Of a DNA stretch of 50,243 nucleotides, positions 42,884 through 50,243 are shown one piece after another. A model generated the notes under the pieces. The model searched no databases and was not told where the DNA came from. It saw only the letters and a list, made by a program, of their open reading frames with translations. The stretch spans positions 1 to 50,243 of the forward strand of contig JAKSRF010000005.1 in NCBI GenBank assembly GCA_024403755.1. The letters run 5' to 3'. This DNA comes from Clostridia bacterium (lineage in GTDB: Bacteria; Bacillota; Clostridia; Saccharofermentanales; Saccharofermentanaceae). The translations under genes were made by a program, and so were the position numbers. Position 1 is the first letter of the stretch. Each line of letters opens with the position of its first letter.

Positions 42884-45475
42884 TTGGAACCGGAAATAAA
42901 CACAGCCAGCGTTGAGACTGCAGAATGTGAGGCGATTCAATTGAATGAATCGCCGGTTTTGCGTACAGATAAAAAAAGCATTGTATTAAGAGTGGTTGCA
43001 ATGCTTTTGGCTGTCATTCTGCCGATTATTATTATGGGTGAAATTGTTTTTTCCGGGATTGATTCCGTAAATAAAAGAAGAAATGAACAGGAGATAGCTT
43101 TAGAAGAGAGCAGGAATGCTTCCGAAGCACAGGAAAAGAATCAGAAAGAACGTGATACTTTTTTGTACAGCTTAAAGACAACTTTATACGGAAACGGAGT
43201 GTTCAGCACTTCAATTCTTGCCGGTGTACAAAGAGATATTGATGATGCAAAAGCTTTGGCAGAGGACTATATTGACAGAAAATACATTCTGACCAATCAT
43301 TTTGATCCTTTTTTTCCTGTTTTGGTTCATTATTGCAAAATTAATTCTTCAGAAACATCATTAAATGTGAAGGAAAGTGCAAAAACTCAAACTGAAACAG
43401 TAGAGTATCGGGTTGCACTCAGTATATATGTTTTAAGATTCGGATTGGCTTCACTTGCAATGTTTTGTTTTGCCGCATTTGCAGTGAAACTGAGTAACGG
43501 TAAGTCGGTGCTTCTCGCTTTAGTATATTCTTTGTCGTCAATAAATCTGATTTTTGCGCAGAACTCTTCAATAATGAATCTTGCGATTATTGTACCGTTA
43601 GTTATGATTTCGGTTGCCTGTTTCGTGCGCAAATCGAGTTTTAAGACTTTTGTTTTATTCTCGTTATGTTCCGCTGTTATGTTTGTTTCAGGAATATACG
43701 GCGTAATATTCGGTATTCCTTTTGTTATTGTATTTTCATATTTATATGCCTGTTGTGCAGGTCTCAAGTTAAGTCGATGTTTTAAATATGCACTGCAGAG
43801 TTTACCTGCAACACTTATCGGTTTGGGAATTTCATGTCCTATTTGGATTATTTGGTTCACTGAGTATCATTTGACATCTGCTGAACCGGTGTTTTCTGTC
43901 AGATATACTTTTATGGATTTTCTGTACAGATTTTTTGCTTTTACTGCGATAAATCCTTCCTATGATGTCTCTAAGACCGCTGTTCCGACCGGTGATTTAT
44001 CAATAACCGATATGTTTAAGAGCGGTTCACTGGGGAATAATGCTCACGATATTAATCTTTTCAGAGCACCTTCGATGTATTTTTCTCTCGTTGCATTGCT
44101 GTTGTTGGTTTTATTTTTTATAAGTAAAAGTATTTCCTCAAGGGCTCGAATATCTGCGGCTGTGATTATTTTTATTTATCACCTGTCCTATGCACTGATA
44201 CCGCTGGATTTGATATGCAATATATTTGATATGGGAACGGTAATGGGAATGGTGAGATTTGTTTTCGTTAATGCTATTCTTGTTTTTCTTGTTTCTTTAT
44301 CATTGGAAAATATAGAAGAGAAGTTACATGATATGTCATTGGCGCTTTACATCGTTCTTGGTTTTATTGTTGTCGCCAATGCCGTATTTGACGGTGATAA
44401 AGCTAATTCTGTCAAGTTGATTTTTAATTTTTTTGTACCGATAATCTTGTATTTTGTTATTAAGAATTTTTCAAGAAGCAGTATTGCTGTGTGGATTGCT
44501 GTATTGCTTACTGCAGCAGAATTGGCATTTGTTACGGATGTTAATTTTAAAACCAGCGTTATAGCAACTAATTATACTGTTAATCCTCTTTTCGAAAAGG
44601 AGACAAGAAGAGCATTTGATACATTCGGTGTGGAGGATATAAAGCTTTTGGGCGAAGAAAATGATTTGGAATATGCATGTGTTTCCTATGATTCTGTTAA
44701 AGAGAATGATAGTATACTCGGCTTGATAAACGGTATTTTCTCGGAGAAATACGAGAAAGCACTTTTTAGACCTCTGCCGATTGAGAACACATATACGGAA
44801 TGTCTTGACTGTGAAGGGGATGTATATTCAATAAGCGATTCCGATTACGGAAAGGTAATTCAAGTGCTGTCTTCTGACTGCATTCCGTCCGATGCCAGAA
44901 TTGTTTTGTATTCTCAATATAATGAGAAATCACATTACAATATTATGGATACGGAGCGTAACGGTATCATTGCGAAATCCGGAAGTGAAAACGGTACATT
45001 TATTATAGATATTACTTCTGAGATTAGAACAATAGGTGAGGCTGCAAGCAGTATTCAGATAGAATATGACGTAATGAATAATTCGGGTGATAACAGGTTT
45101 GAATACGGCATATATTATGCAACCAATCAGGATATTGAGAAGTATAACGAACTTTTTGTTAAGGGTTCGACAATGGTTGACGGTGAGCGTCGCTTAAAGG
45201 TAATTACGAATTGTGACTATCAGGATTCGGTTAAGGTGTCTATTGATTTAAGCAATTATGATACATATAATTGTTGTGGTAAGCTTGCCTTTGATATTGA
45301 TTCGAGCGAATTGTCAGGGCATGATATTGATGTTTATGATAAGAATACTGCAGAGATTTTTTCTTATGCAGTTTCATTTATTACTGTGACAGCACTGGCT
45401 GCGTTGACTGTTAACAGAAGATTTGTTATTCGTAAGAATAGGAAAGAAGTCGGTAACGATAGCAAAAATGAGTAA
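42884..45475 (+). CDS. YfhO-like large membrane protein
   Basis: An 863-residue protein with a short cytoplasmic N-terminus, a first helix (about 36-58), an extracellular loop, about ten further helices (to about 560) and a large C-terminal extracellular beta-rich domain, ending in one more helix and a basic tail. This layout resembles YfhO/GT-C membrane proteins that glycosylate lipoteichoic acid or related polymers; the similarity is at topology level. The first codon is TTG 42884, 8 nt after GAGGG; no ATG is near the N-terminus. It overlaps the exonuclease gene by 8 nt. Confidence 0.6.
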   Translation: MEPEINTASVETAECEAIQLNESPVLRTDKKSIVLRVVAMLLAVILPIIIMGEIVFSGIDSVNKRRNEQEIALEESRNASEAQEKNQKERDTFLYSLKTTLYGNGVFSTSILAGVQRDIDDAKALAEDYIDRKYILTNHFDPFFPVLVHYCKINSSETSLNVKESAKTQTETVEYRVALSIYVLRFGLASLAMFCFAAFAVKLSNGKSVLLALVYSLSSINLIFAQNSSIMNLAIIVPLVMISVACFVRKSSFKTFVLFSLCSAVMFVSGIYGVIFGIPFVIVFSYLYACCAGLKLSRCFKYALQSLPATLIGLGISCPIWIIWFTEYHLTSAEPVFSVRYTFMDFLYRFFAFTAINPSYDVSKTAVPTGDLSITDMFKSGSLGNNAHDINLFRAPSMYFSLVALLLLVLFFISKSISSRARISAAVIIFIYHLSYALIPLDLICNIFDMGTVMGMVRFVFVNAILVFLVSLSLENIEEKLHDMSLALYIVLGFIVVANAVFDGDKANSVKLIFNFFVPIILYFVIKNFSRSSIAVWIAVLLTAAELAFVTDVNFKTSVIATNYTVNPLFEKETRRAFDTFGVEDIKLLGEENDLEYACVSYDSVKENDSILGLINGIFSEKYEKALFRPLPIENTYTECLDCEGDVYSISDSDYGKVIQVLSSDCIPSDARIVLYSQYNEKSHYNIMDTERNGIIAKSGSENGTFIIDITSEIRTIGEAASSIQIEYDVMNNSGDNRFEYGIYYATNQDIEKYNELFVKGSTMVDGERRLKVITNCDYQDSVKVSIDLSNYDTYNCCGKLAFDIDSSELSGHDIDVYDKNTAEIFSYAVSFITVTALAALTVNRRFVIRKNRKEVGNDSKNE

Positions 45476-46490
45476 TTTGTTTTCTCCTGAAATTAATAAA
45501 GATACCTCTTTTATTATTTTTGATCTTGAATGGAATCAGCCGTATTCATCAATCAATTATCCGTTTGATACTCACAAATTTAACGGTGAGATAATTGAGA
45601 TAGGGGCAGTTAAAATGAAATTTAATGACAGTATGGAGTTAGTAGTAACCGACAAACTGTCTTTAGATATTAAGCCGGAGTACTATCGCACGTTGCATTT
45701 TCAGGTGAAAAAAATAACACATAAGACAGATGAAGATTTGAAGAAGGGCATAAGCTTTAAAGAAGGATACAGACAATTAATCGATTTGTGCGATAATAAT
45801 TCGATTCTTGTAACGTGGGGAAACGGTGATATCGATATGCTCAAACTTAATCTTGAGCTTTTTGGGTGTGATACTACAATCGGTGTGTCGTATCTTGATT
45901 TACAACCGATGTTTTCGGTATTTACAGAGAAGGTTTATGCACAGCACAGTGTGGAATTTGCAGTGGATTTTTTTAATATTGATAAGTCAGTGGATTTTCA
46001 CAGCGCTTATGCAGATGCATATTATACCTCTATGATAATGAGAAGACTTTTTGCCGATTACGGTTGTGATTTTGTAAGTAAAGAGTGTGCCGGGGCTACC
46101 ATTGATCCTGATATGCCACGTTCTTTTACACGTATGACTGTTCCGGATAAGAATTTGATGCACGCTTATGAAGATAAGCAGAAGTGGAACCGTCTTTGTC
46201 CTGTGTGTCAGAAAAAAAACAAGACAGTAATTTCATCATTCCGAATTCAGAAATCTGCCTACGCTTTATATGAATGTTCCGAACACGGAAGATTTTATAT
46301 AAGAACCAAGGTGAAAAAGAATAAGGAAGGCTTGTATTATGGTGCAATTGTGAAGAGAATGTGTACAACTCAAGACTATATGTTAATAAAAAACAAGAAA
46401 AAAGAGTACGATATATACGGCAGCGATGGGAAGCCACCGTGCCTTAACGAAGGTACAAAGATTGATAATGTAAAATGTGAAGAAAAATAA
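45468..46490 (+). CDS. DEDDh 3'-5' exonuclease with a C-terminal cysteine module
   Basis: A 340-residue protein. The N-terminal domain (about 10-200) is a KapD/DNA-polymerase-III-epsilon-like exonuclease: F-D-L-E-W (exo I), W-G-N-G-D-I-D (exo II) and D-F-H-S-A-Y-A-D-A (exo III with the histidine). The C-terminal part has a C-x-x-C pair, then a C-x-x-H, probably a zinc site that could bind nucleic acid. Whether it degrades DNA or RNA is unknown. ATG 45468 starts inside the YfhO-like gene and has no strong ribosome binding site. Confidence 0.82.
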   Translation: MSNLFSPEINKDTSFIIFDLEWNQPYSSINYPFDTHKFNGEIIEIGAVKMKFNDSMELVVTDKLSLDIKPEYYRTLHFQVKKITHKTDEDLKKGISFKEGYRQLIDLCDNNSILVTWGNGDIDMLKLNLELFGCDTTIGVSYLDLQPMFSVFTEKVYAQHSVEFAVDFFNIDKSVDFHSAYADAYYTSMIMRRLFADYGCDFVSKECAGATIDPDMPRSFTRMTVPDKNLMHAYEDKQKWNRLCPVCQKKNKTVISSFRIQKSAYALYECSEHGRFYIRTKVKKNKEGLYYGAIVKRMCTTQDYMLIKNKKKEYDIYGSDGKPPCLNEGTKIDNVKCEEK

Positions 46491-46508
46491 AACAAAATGC
46501 TTTTAATC

Positions 46509-46537
46509 TTGAAAAAAATGTGAACGTGTAATACAAT
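46509..46537 (+). promoter_or_regulatory. Promoter of the first PilX-like gene
   Basis: TTGAAA at 46509-46514 and TACAAT at 46532-46537 are 17 bp apart. The -35 and first part of the spacer are identical to the promoter at 48401. An AT-rich motif (46485-46498) upstream also recurs there, offset by 9 bp. Confidence 0.85.
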
Positions 46538-46605
46538 ATCATTGGATTTGAAGTTGTGTTTTCTCAATTTTGGGTTAACATTTGCAGAATTTAAGGAGTT
46601 TGTTT

Positions 46606-48249
46606 ATGAGTAAGATTTTTTTTGAGAGAAGAAAAAGCAAACGCGGAGCAATGCTTATACTTGTATTGTTGATTGTATCCTTAGCAGTAATACTTATAGG
46701 TTCAGCATTGACGATGACACGTCAGACCAGAACCAGATATTATTCTTATGCTGAAGGAAGCCAGGCAAGGTTGACAGCAACTTCAATTGCCGAATCTTTG
46801 TGGGATGCAATCTATATTCAGGAAATCGACGATGCTACACTGAAGAAGATGGCCAACGGCGCTGCTGTCCTTAATCTTTCAGGAAGTGTTCCGGGTGCCA
46901 ACGGGGTAAGCCAGGGTAAAGTCGTATTTCATGCTCCTGCAGCTGACGGAAAGATTAATATCGATTGTTCAGCTACTGTAGGCGGTACTACTTCAAATGT
47001 TAGATTAACGTTGGATCCGCCACCTCCGAAGACAGATAAAAATTTGTTTGAGCATGTTTTGAATTTGGCAGGTGGTTCTAATATCACTGAGATGAATATA
47101 GGTGAAGGCGGCGCAGGTAAAACTGATAATACAATTCTTATTCAGGGTGACGGCGTAAATATGAAAGGTACATGTCAAATACATTCTGATATGTTTGTTC
47201 AAGGTGTTTTTACACCGCAAGATAATCAGTATTTGGGTAATTTGATTTTCTGGGGACCTGATGCAAAGATAAATCTTTCCGGAAGTCCTAAGCTTGGAAG
47301 CGCCAGCGGACATGGTTTGTATTTTGTTTCCAACAGCACAAAGCAACAGTCAGTTTTGGATAACGGTGCCAATCTTGACCCTATAGGAAATGGTGGTATA
47401 ACTGAATTTGGACTTTATAATGCAAATTTTGTTATGAATAAAGGTAACGCATTTAATAGTTCAGATTTTATTAAGCAAAAAGGAATCGATACAAGTGCTT
47501 CATACAGCGGTTCGGTTGTCGGAGCAATAGATTCAGCTCCAACATCTATGGAAGCTGCGATTATTGCCAAGGCTATCGAATATGCCAAAAAGGATTTTTC
47601 AGATCATTTCCCGACATTGGATGAAGCACAGAGCGCTTTCGGTTGCTCACCAACGTTATCAGGTACGGCAAAGTATAGTGGTTCATTTAACGGTTGTACC
47701 GATAAAGGTGCAGGTTCGTATGAAGTTACAGGTAATTTGAGTAATGAATTAGTATTTGATCTTAATAATGGTGATTATGTAATTTATGTTAACGGTAAGT
47801 GTGATATAACCGGTAAGATTAAATTTATTAACGGTGGCGCAAGTAACAACTGGGGACGTATAATTTTAAAGCAGGGTATTGAGTTTAGTATTTCTACTGA
47901 TGGTGAGGCCGGCATATACTCTTTTGAAAACGGAAAACCTCATTGTTATGTATATGGTAACGGTAATGTTAAATTCAATATGAATGGTAACGGTGCTTCA
48001 ACAGTTGAAGCTTATGTTGGATTGTATGACCCGGCAGGAACAAGCGACTCGAACAGATCAGTATTTATTTGTTACAATTCTGCTAAGTATGTAATTAAAG
48101 GAAGAATTGCATGCCCATACATCGAGCATAGTACCGGTGGTCACTTGAATATTCCTTATTGTGTCGATCCTACATATGTAGGCGGAGACGGAAAGATTCA
48201 GCCAATTGTGACAGAATATAGTGTAGAGCCGTTTGTATATTTTAGTTGA
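46606..48249 (+). CDS. PilX-like giant pseudopilin/pilus-associated protein, copy 1
   Basis: A 547-residue protein. A basic leader K-R-G is followed by a hydrophobic helix (A-M-L-I-L-V-L-L-I-V) and a helical stretch with R-Q-T-R-x-R-Y-Y and A-E-S-L-W. This matches the PilX-type N-terminal segment that is processed after glycine and inserted into type IV pili or pseudopili. There is no glutamate at mature position 5, as in some tip or minor pilins. The rest (about 90-547) is beta-rich, with asparagine/glycine-rich repeats. It ends in V-E-P-F-V-Y-F-S. It may sit at a pilus tip or on the surface. AAGGAG at 46593-46598 sets ATG 46606. The paralogue follows. Confidence 0.65.
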   Translation: MSKIFFERRKSKRGAMLILVLLIVSLAVILIGSALTMTRQTRTRYYSYAEGSQARLTATSIAESLWDAIYIQEIDDATLKKMANGAAVLNLSGSVPGANGVSQGKVVFHAPAADGKINIDCSATVGGTTSNVRLTLDPPPPKTDKNLFEHVLNLAGGSNITEMNIGEGGAGKTDNTILIQGDGVNMKGTCQIHSDMFVQGVFTPQDNQYLGNLIFWGPDAKINLSGSPKLGSASGHGLYFVSNSTKQQSVLDNGANLDPIGNGGITEFGLYNANFVMNKGNAFNSSDFIKQKGIDTSASYSGSVVGAIDSAPTSMEAAIIAKAIEYAKKDFSDHFPTLDEAQSAFGCSPTLSGTAKYSGSFNGCTDKGAGSYEVTGNLSNELVFDLNNGDYVIYVNGKCDITGKIKFINGGASNNWGRIILKQGIEFSISTDGEAGIYSFENGKPHCYVYGNGNVKFNMNGNGASTVEAYVGLYDPAGTSDSNRSVFICYNSAKYVIKGRIACPYIEHSTGGHLNIPYCVDPTYVGGDGKIQPIVTEYSVEPFVYFS

Positions 48250-48277
48250 TTACTATTAAGCATATTATTTAGTTGTT

Positions 48278-48306
48278 AACAGGGTATCGTGAGATACCCT
48301 GTTTTT
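48278..48306 (+). terminator. Terminator of PilX-like copy 1
   Basis: A perfect 11-bp stem (48278-48288 with 48293-48303), a GTGA loop and a T run. Confidence 0.92.
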
Positions 48307-48400
48307 AATGCAATTTGACTGAAGTATACAAAAATGTCATGACTATTTTATAAATAATATAAAAATTGACATAAATCAGTAATAGAAATAAAACAAAATC

Positions 48401-48429
48401 TTGAAAAAAATGTGAAGATAATGTATAAT
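48401..48429 (+). promoter_or_regulatory. Promoter of the second PilX-like gene
   Basis: TTGAAA at 48401-48406 and TATAAT at 48424-48429 are 17 bp apart. It is a copy of the promoter at 46509 with a better -10. Confidence 0.87.
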
Positions 48430-48493
48430 CCTGAAGGTGTGAAAGGGTTCAAATACCATGCACGAGAAGAAAGTTATATTGAAGGGGGAAGTT

Positions 48494-50107
48494 ATGATTA
48501 AAAAATCTACTGTTAAAGGTAAGCGCGGAGCAATGCTTATCCTTGTTTTATTGATAGTGGCTTTGGCAGTTATTCTTATAGGCTCCGCATTGTCTATGAC
48601 TCGCCAGACACGTGCAAGATATTATTCATATGCAGAGGGAAGCCAGTCAAGGCTGACTGCAACTTCAATTGCAGAGTCGCTGTGGGATGCGATTTATATT
48701 CAAGAGATAGATGATGCTACGGTTGAGGAAATGGCAAACGGTAAAGCAAAATTGCAATTATCCGGTCTGACTGTACCTGGCGCTAATGGTGTAAGTAACG
48801 GCATAGTGGAATTCGAACCACCTAAGGAAGGTAAAATACGTATAAAATGTACAGCAACTGTCGGTGGTACGACTACGACTGTTCAATTGACACTAGTTCA
48901 GCCTGAACCGACTACAGTTACTAATCTATTTGAGCATTTGGTTAATTTGTCAGGTGGTTCCAACATTACAGAAACCAATATAGGTGCAGGTGGTAGCGGT
49001 GCTTCGGATAATACCATTCTTATACAAGGTGATGGTGTAGATATAAACGGTAGTTGTGATATTGATTCAACAACTTTCATCCAAGGTGTATTTAAACCGC
49101 AGGATAACAGATTCAATGCTGATCTGGTATTCTGGGGACCGAAAGCTCAAATGAACCTCCAAGGTGAACCTAAGTTGGGTGGTACGAATATGGGTTTGTA
49201 TTTTGTATCTAACAGTACAAAACAACAGTCAGTTTTGGACAACGGTGCCAATCTTGATCCGAACGGCGAAGGTAAATTAAGCGAATTTGGACTTTATAAT
49301 GCTAATTTTGTTATGAATAAAGGTAACGCATTTGGTAATTCTGATTTTATTTTGCAAAAGGGAATCGATTCCAGTGCTTCATACAGCGGTTCGGTTGTAG
49401 GAGCAATAAATTCAGCTCCAACAACTATGTCAGATGCGATTATTGCCAAAGCAAAGGCTTATGCCGAAAAAGATTTCACTGATCACTATCCGACAATTGA
49501 TGAAGTTTCAGGTGCGTTCGGTTGTTCAACAACACCGACCGGAACAGTAGTTATTTCCGGTGAATACGGTGCCGGTAATTATATAATTAATGGTGATGTC
49601 AGCGGAGATCTTGTATTTGATATAGGCGGTGGTGATTGTACTGTTTATGTAACAAGTAATTGTTATCTTTCCGGTTCTATATCTTTCATCAATGGTGCCT
49701 CAAACCAGTATTGGGGAAGAATAATTCTTTCAAATGGTATCGATTTTACAATTGGCGGTGCAGGTGCCGGAATATATTCTTATGAAAATGGTAAGCCTCA
49801 TTGTTTTGTTTATGGTATGGGAAATATTTTGTTCAGCATCGTTGAAAATGGACCATCGTATCTTGAAGCGTATGTCGGACTTTATGACAGTGATTCTCCT
49901 TCGAGAGATTCTAAGTTCTATGTAGAAGGTTCTCCGGATAAATTTTATTTTAAGGGTAGACTTTCTGCTCCGTTGTATGAACATTATAATGGTGGTCATT
50001 TAAATATACCTTATTGTGTAGATCCAACTGCTCCGGGTAGCGGAGACGGAAAGATTTATCCGATTGTTACCGGTTTTAAAGTTGAACCATTTGTTTACTT
50101 TAGTTAA
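48494..50107 (+). CDS. PilX-like giant pseudopilin/pilus-associated protein, copy 2
   Basis: A 537-residue paralogue of the preceding protein, by eye about 60-65% identical overall and near 90% in the first 65 residues. It has the same K-R-G leader and hydrophobic helix, the same central Q-S-V-L-D-N-G-A-N-L-D and G-L-Y-N-A-N-F-V-M-N-K-G-N-A-F segments and the same V-E-P-F-V-Y-F-S end. Differences concentrate in loops of the beta-rich region. AAGGGGG precedes ATG 48494. No prepilin peptidase or pilus ATPase is in the window. Confidence 0.65.
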   Translation: MIKKSTVKGKRGAMLILVLLIVALAVILIGSALSMTRQTRARYYSYAEGSQSRLTATSIAESLWDAIYIQEIDDATVEEMANGKAKLQLSGLTVPGANGVSNGIVEFEPPKEGKIRIKCTATVGGTTTTVQLTLVQPEPTTVTNLFEHLVNLSGGSNITETNIGAGGSGASDNTILIQGDGVDINGSCDIDSTTFIQGVFKPQDNRFNADLVFWGPKAQMNLQGEPKLGGTNMGLYFVSNSTKQQSVLDNGANLDPNGEGKLSEFGLYNANFVMNKGNAFGNSDFILQKGIDSSASYSGSVVGAINSAPTTMSDAIIAKAKAYAEKDFTDHYPTIDEVSGAFGCSTTPTGTVVISGEYGAGNYIINGDVSGDLVFDIGGGDCTVYVTSNCYLSGSISFINGASNQYWGRIILSNGIDFTIGGAGAGIYSYENGKPHCFVYGMGNILFSIVENGPSYLEAYVGLYDSDSPSRDSKFYVEGSPDKFYFKGRLSAPLYEHYNGGHLNIPYCVDPTAPGSGDGKIYPIVTGFKVEPFVYFS

Positions 50108-50121
50108 TAGTTTGTTTTAGT

Positions 50122-50149
50122 TGGGACGTCGTAAGATGTCCCATTTTTT
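50122..50149 (+). terminator. Terminator of PilX-like copy 2
   Basis: A 9-bp stem with one G-U pair (50122-50130 with 50135-50143) and a GTAA loop is followed by six T residues. Confidence 0.9.
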
Positions 50150-50182: not shown

Positions 50183-50204
50183 CTATTTTGATTAAAAAGA
50201 TATC

Positions 50205-50243
50205 TTATTGCAAAGTAACGGTATAAACAATTTCTATTTCTTG
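50205..50243 (-). CDS. Possible 3' end of a minus-strand gene (partial)
   Basis: The minus-strand frame from the window edge is open for 12 codons to TAA at 50205-50207, with ordinary codons, and is followed by a minus-strand terminator. No function can be given. Confidence 0.35.
   Translation of the reverse strand, partial: QEIEIVYTVTLQ

Follow-up and report, generated by a model that had tools for sequence, protein, structure and literature searches.

A tandem pair of ComZ-like modular minor pilins, probable tip subunits, beside a type IV pilus locus of a Clostridia bacterium

Two large pilin-like genes stand in tandem near the right end of the window, by which we mean the whole stretch of 50,243 nucleotides that was analyzed. 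It is contig C114 of a 2.17-Mb draft genome (168 contigs, 1.8% contamination). Which machine do these proteins serve, and what would a cell do with two of them?

Two complete transcription units

Both open reading frames are intact and encode proteins of 547 aa (copy 1) and 537 aa (copy 2), in agreement with the two adjacent genes of about 540 residues described in an earlier note on this DNA, and the proteins are 66-67% identical. The features of the pair and of its upstream neighbor are:

45468-46490, + strand: RNase_T-type exonuclease (PF00929, E 2.1e-10), the upstream neighbor conserved in the family
46485-46498, + strand: 14-mer AAATAAAACAAAAT before copy 1; it includes the exonuclease stop codon and forms the left edge of the duplicated unit
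46505-46537, + strand: promoter of copy 1, AATC-TTGAAA-N17-TACAAT (TTGAAA to TACAAT, 46509-46537)
46505-46524, + strand: shared 20-mer in copy 1
46593-46598: ribosome binding site of copy 1, AAGGAG
46606-48249, + strand: copy 1 (P0001), putative K-type ComZ-like modular minor pilin of 547 aa; the leader spans residues 1-14 and ends in KSKRG; without Glu5
about 48278-48303, + strand: terminator hairpin of copy 1 (-18.7 kcal/mol, z -5.9)
48386-48399, + strand: second AAATAAAACAAAAT, upstream of copy 2, read directly
48397-48429, + strand: promoter of copy 2, AATC-TTGAAA-N17-TATAAT, 11/12 consensus bases (TTGAAA to TATAAT, 48401-48429)
48481-48489: ribosome binding site of copy 2, GAAGGGGGA
48494-50107, + strand: copy 2 (P0002), putative paralogous K-type ComZ-like modular minor pilin, 537 aa; leader residues 1-12
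50122-50143, + strand: terminator hairpin of copy 2 (-15.5 kcal/mol, z -5.8)

The ribosome binding sites were read directly, the promoter sites were scored and the hairpins were folded, and each copy indeed has all three elements of its own, as had been claimed. With 11 and 10 of 12 consensus bases, the two promoters head the list of 16 promoter-like sites in the region, and an identical 20-mer, AATCTTGAAAAAAATGTGAA, lies over the -35 region in both copies (blastn of the two units, E 2e-5). The 12-mer AAATAAAACAAA has exact matches in the window only at the two upstream sites of copies 1 and 2. The AT-rich 14-mer is found exactly where it had been placed, and the stop codon of the exonuclease gene (TAA, 46488-46490) lies inside the one of copy 1. 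Since the upstream region of copy 2 carries the same 14-mer, the duplicated DNA started near that stop codon. The shared 20-mer and 14-mer upstream of both copies also uphold the view that regulatory DNA was included in the duplication. From the copy 1 promoter, AATCTTGAAAAAAATGTGAAC is also found upstream of the single-copy homologue in a relative (G013).

In the tree the two copies are sisters (support 100/99), with a longer branch for copy 2 (0.41 vs 0.17 for copy 1). Over the whole genes dS is 1.4 and dN 0.27, so that the duplication is not recent. One segment differs from this:

47338-47610, + strand: gene-conversion-like tract of copy 1, residues 245-335
49217-49489, + strand: its counterpart in copy 2

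In residues 245-335 dS is 0.44, whereas it ranges from 1.1 to saturated in the other segments, and identical synonymous codons are in excess (permutation p = 0.0002). This pattern fits a gene-conversion event later than the duplication.

Of 188 genomes of the order that were searched with the family profile, 110 have the gene. These belong to five genera of a single family, from which about 115 genomes were included in the search. The gene is single-copy in every one of the 62 named loci, which come mostly from Saccharofermentans-like and other rumen or gut clostridia, and the survey of copy numbers in related genomes found the tandem arrangement in the window's genome only. Matches on two contigs each in G004 and G069 were rejected as tandem copies; these genomes have 6% and 4% contamination. 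The pair could be an assembly artefact of two strains, for which its absence from every other genome, the 168 contigs of the draft and its 1.8% contamination would speak. However, two full genes, each with a promoter and terminator distinct from the other's, follow one another between flanking neighbors in an order conserved in relatives, copy 2 keeps its own upstream relic of the shared motif, and a chimera at a strain switch would yield one copy, not two. We therefore regard an artefact as very unlikely.

The pilus locus beyond the contig edge

It had been stated that no other pilus genes are nearby, which holds only inside the window. Contig C114 stops 136 nt past copy 2, and its last bases are shared with another contig:

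50189-50243, + strand: last 55 nt of the window, identical to G000:C84:1-55

Within the genome this 55-mer occurs only at the ends of C114 and C84. Contig C84 carries a pil locus, and the apparent absence of pilus genes is thus an effect of the contig edge. When the two contigs are joined, which rests on the 55-nt overlap plus synteny, pilB starts at C84:3842, about 3.9 kb past copy 2. The start of C84 holds, on the opposite strand, a DUF6062-type gene, a P-loop/Asp23-type gene and YebC, next to a prepilin-methylase-like gene. Onward from there follow pilB, pilT, pilC, pilM, pilN, a gene in the pilO position, four small pilins and an I-like and a J-like minor pilin. The last two are at C84:13096-13686 and C84:13700-14224. 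The Pfam matches on C84 are PF06750, T2SSE (twice), T2SSF, PilM_2, PilN and N_methyl, and the labels DUF6062, YebC, PilT (as against PilB) and I/J are our own reading of the sequences. In the pil operon, where I- and J-like pilins are present, no K candidate was found besides copies 1 and 2, and only one T4P-type locus was detected in the genome of the window.

The rest of the genome was also searched for pilus genes and a prepilin peptidase, and both the pil genes and a PF01478 peptidase are present. The "PilD" of the pil locus (G000:C84:2785-3630; L051, - strand) has kept the Cys-rich PF06750 half and lacks GxGD, as do seven homologues in the genus. The sole PF01478 peptidase of the genome (G000:C92:26245-27204; L169:746-1705, - strand) is a protein of 319 aa with GMGMGDVKLLG and without a PF06750 match. 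Judged by these motifs, the prepilin peptidase looks split between the C84 and C92 proteins. Between the tip-pilin gene and pilB, the P-loop/Asp23-type gene (L051:814-2019, - strand), whose 401-aa product gave a weak P-loop match and has a C-terminus of the Asp23 type, is conserved across the genus. A second T2SSF/N_methyl cluster is present in some relatives (G005:C1, G011:C28, G014:C44 and others), and it contains very large ORFs that bear N_methyl, of up to 3781 aa (G012:C10).

The block TTGAAAAAAATGTGAA is present in G013 as well as in both copies, and similar sequence precedes two of the C84 pilins. Across the genus no more than 10 of 62 upstream regions contain its core AAATGTGA (shuffle mean 0.87), and the reading of the block as an operator was dropped for this reason. 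Genus-wide, a TTGAAA-N17-type promoter belongs to the tip-pilin gene itself. Sequences like TGACAAAAATGTGAA, from the promoter block that the copies share, are found upstream of two small pilin genes (L051:11357-11376 and L051:12286-12305), and the tip-pilin copies and these two small pilins possibly have a common regulator.

The order YfhO, exonuclease, tip-pilin gene, DUF6062 ... pilB is found in 29 of the 34 loci of the genus. Among all 62 named loci, the gene neighbors the pil locus in 50, either in the same order or with an inverted pil operon; the remaining 12 comprise seven that run into a contig edge and five with different downstream genes. In the window's genus the gene lies upstream of pilB, and in genomes of the sister genus at the I/J end of the operon and on the opposite strand. 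There it directly abuts the I/J minor-pilin end (L183, L185 and L188; also L132 and L186), or one small pilin stands in between (L184). Since the gene adjoins the pil operon in both arrangements, the linkage survived the inversion, and gene order conserved in this way is strong evidence that the gene belongs to the pilus.

The earlier note had suggested a separate surface system that merely borrows the pilus machinery, and the organization of each copy as its own transcription unit, with promoter and terminator, would suit such a system. The family-wide linkage to the pil locus in two different arrangements argues against it, however. In most relatives the gene stands at the edge of the main T4P locus, and in this genome the one T4P-type locus found continues the window by contig overlap. 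A separate system is hence hardly credible, and the pair appears to be an uncommon duplication, of a tip pilin, in a known kind of machine.

A predicted pilin module with an inserted solenoid

Both copies start with a positively charged leader that ends in Gly and is followed by a hydrophobic helix (junctions ...RRKSKRG/AMLILVLLIV in copy 1 and ...TVKGKRG/AMLILVLLIV in copy 2). From its sequence the leader is class-III-like in both, and its Gly is found in 62 of 62 homologues. The canonical Glu5 is absent: mature position 5 is Leu in both copies, and none of the 62 homologues has Glu there. Six C84 pilins have Glu5 (FTLVE, FTLLE or similar). With 547 and 537 aa, the copies also contrast in size with the C84 small pilins, the ORFs of which have 70-81 aa.

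The earlier name "PilX-like giant pseudopilins" is apt in part, as the proteins are pilin-like and unusually large. PilX_N (PF14341), however, has no match in the genome and none in 18 family members, and DUF7305 (PF23981) gave 24.1 and 19.6 bits, under the cut-off of 27, and matches only 2 of the 18 family members at all; the fold is closest to ComZ. By these profiles the family names PilX_N and DUF7305 do not strictly apply to the copies. The GspK family NF037980 has a weak N-terminal match (E 0.0014), with 18.3 and 18.1 bits vs a curated cut-off of 130, and profile searches of PDB sequences gave a chance-level match or none, with ComZ not above the cut-off.

AlphaFold2 models of both copies (mean pLDDT 78.8 for each) start with a 59-residue helix and a pilin sheet of four strands. 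Next comes a beta-solenoid of about 380 residues, after which a C-terminal strand returns to the pilin sheet; the pairing of this last strand with the sheet is inferred from the aligned ranges. In copy 1 the helix comprises residues 12-70 and the strands residues 88-137 plus the C-terminal strand. The inserted module is:

47035-48186, + strand: predicted beta-solenoid of copy 1, comprising residues 144-527 and followed by the last pilin strand (AlphaFold2 model, ranges of the VIA alignment)

Pilin helix and pilin sheet are thus both modeled, and a fold with an ordinary signal peptide and no pilin helix was not found. Model confidence is low at residues 252-313. The gene-conversion-like tract sits in this low-confidence and most variable part of the protein.

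For both models the top Foldseek match is ComZ (6qvi; E 8e-5 and 4.5e-4). It is also the closest solved whole-length structure, with VIA Z scores of 15.1 and 15.0 over 339 and 338 residues. ComZ has the solenoid insertion point and the resemblance to ice-binding proteins (IBP) that are seen in the models of the copies (PMC6561018). For the solenoid, Z lies at 13-15 against ice-binding proteins and at 10-13 against the C-terminal domains of tapirins, and the pilin fold of Streptococcus sanguinis PilA (7o5y_A) was matched over residues 43-547 with Z 8.3. The solenoid is acidic, with a net charge of -11 and -20 in the copies and a median of -12 among 51. Its length is variable (376-628 residues), and between species it is about 25% identical, vs 58% for the helix.

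Proposed role and known systems

The hydrophobic residue 5, the large size and the I/J partners make the copies fit a K-type initiating subunit. For Gram-positive T4P it has been proposed that the filament begins with the one minor pilin that has a hydrophobic residue 5 and far exceeds the major pilin in size (PMC5207764). We consider it likely that copies 1 and 2 are K-type (GspK-position) initiating or tip minor pilins of the type IV pilus, duplicated so that the cell could present two tips.

In such a pilus the prepilin would be cleaved behind its leader Gly and would pack into the pilus core with its hydrophobic alpha-1 helix. With Glu5 missing and a bulky beta-solenoid attached, each protein may be able to take only the first place in the filament, at its tip. 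By analogy to GspIJK and ComZ-PilA2, it would nucleate the pilus there together with the I- and J-like minor pilins of the adjacent operon. The solenoid of about 380 residues, held on two linkers before the last pilin strand, would then bind a ligand at the tip. An adhesin for plant-fibre or cell-surface material of the gut is the likeliest role and a DNA receptor a less likely one, and retraction by PilT would pull in the tip and its cargo. In the window's species the duplication would have copied an ancestral single gene together with its own promoter, as one complete unit, and the pilus may now carry either of two diverging tips, partly homogenized by gene conversion.

The copies share the architecture of Thermus ComZ, which was shown to bind DNA and has been proposed as a receptor for it at the pilus tip (PMC6561018). 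Moreover, the genome encodes ComEC, a ComEA-like protein and PilT, so that a tip receptor for natural transformation can be envisaged, in which the solenoid binds DNA and PilT retraction passes it to ComEA and ComEC. However, the solenoid is acidic in both copies and most relatives, which speaks mildly against DNA, even if ComZ does not have an obvious positive patch either. Neither strong divergence between species nor a duplication would be expected of a generic DNA receptor, and ComEC is present in all ten genera sampled, with or without the tip-pilin gene, and does not track it. We judge a DNA receptor to be rather unlikely. Because the solenoid is acidic, variable in length and only about 25% identical beside the conserved helix, adhesion to variable surfaces is favored over DNA binding as its role.

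The solenoid might also have no ligand and act only as a bulky nucleating cap, with the copies as GspK-like subunits for assembly or length control. Their K-type features agree with this, and XcpX (GspK) controls pseudopilus length (PMC5207764). A fast-evolving, length-variable solenoid beside a conserved helix fits ligand selection better, however, and the retention of two diverged copies would be left unexplained, so that we find this even less probable than a DNA receptor. It is conceivable, though doubtful, that the copies are separately expressed alternative tips of different specificity and that gene conversion in the solenoid makes new variants, as a two-cassette tip switch.

The gene, which curated Pfam and NCBIfam leave nameless, belongs to the single-copy core of the whole family (110 of about 115 genomes), and it becomes assignable to the T4P as a probable tip subunit. 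It is a candidate ligand-binding protein for the attachment of gut clostridia to their surroundings, and the duplicated pair would offer a natural comparison of two tips on one machine.

Among known proteins, DUF3494 ice-binding proteins (4nu2, 6eio) share the core solenoid (Z 13-15 over about 200 residues), but they are secreted ice-binders without a pilin module and their function is presumably unrelated. Tapirins of Caldicellulosiruptor (4wa0, 6n2b, 6n2c), which are cellulose-binding adhesins, are alike in the solenoid fold only (Z 10-13). PilB and PilC of S. sanguinis combine, like the copies, a pilin module with a bulky functional module, and these modular pilins were argued to sit at the tip of the monoderm pilus (PMC8179133). 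In PilB, however, a vWA module is grafted onto the C-terminus, and the module of PilC is of the lectin type, whereas the solenoid of the copies is inserted into the pilin sheet. GspK and other K-type minor pilins of T2SS and T4aP also lack Glu5, are larger than other pilins and have I- and J-like partners, but carry an alpha-helical insert at another insertion point in place of a beta-solenoid. ComZ of Thermus thermophilus (6qvi) has a pilin module with a large IBP-like beta-solenoid inserted before the last pilin strand, a similar length and a proposed tip position. In contrast to ComZ, to which they have no profile-detectable sequence similarity, the copies stand in a Gram-positive-type pil locus, with their own promoter and duplicated; they would carry the ComZ architecture into this type of pilus locus.
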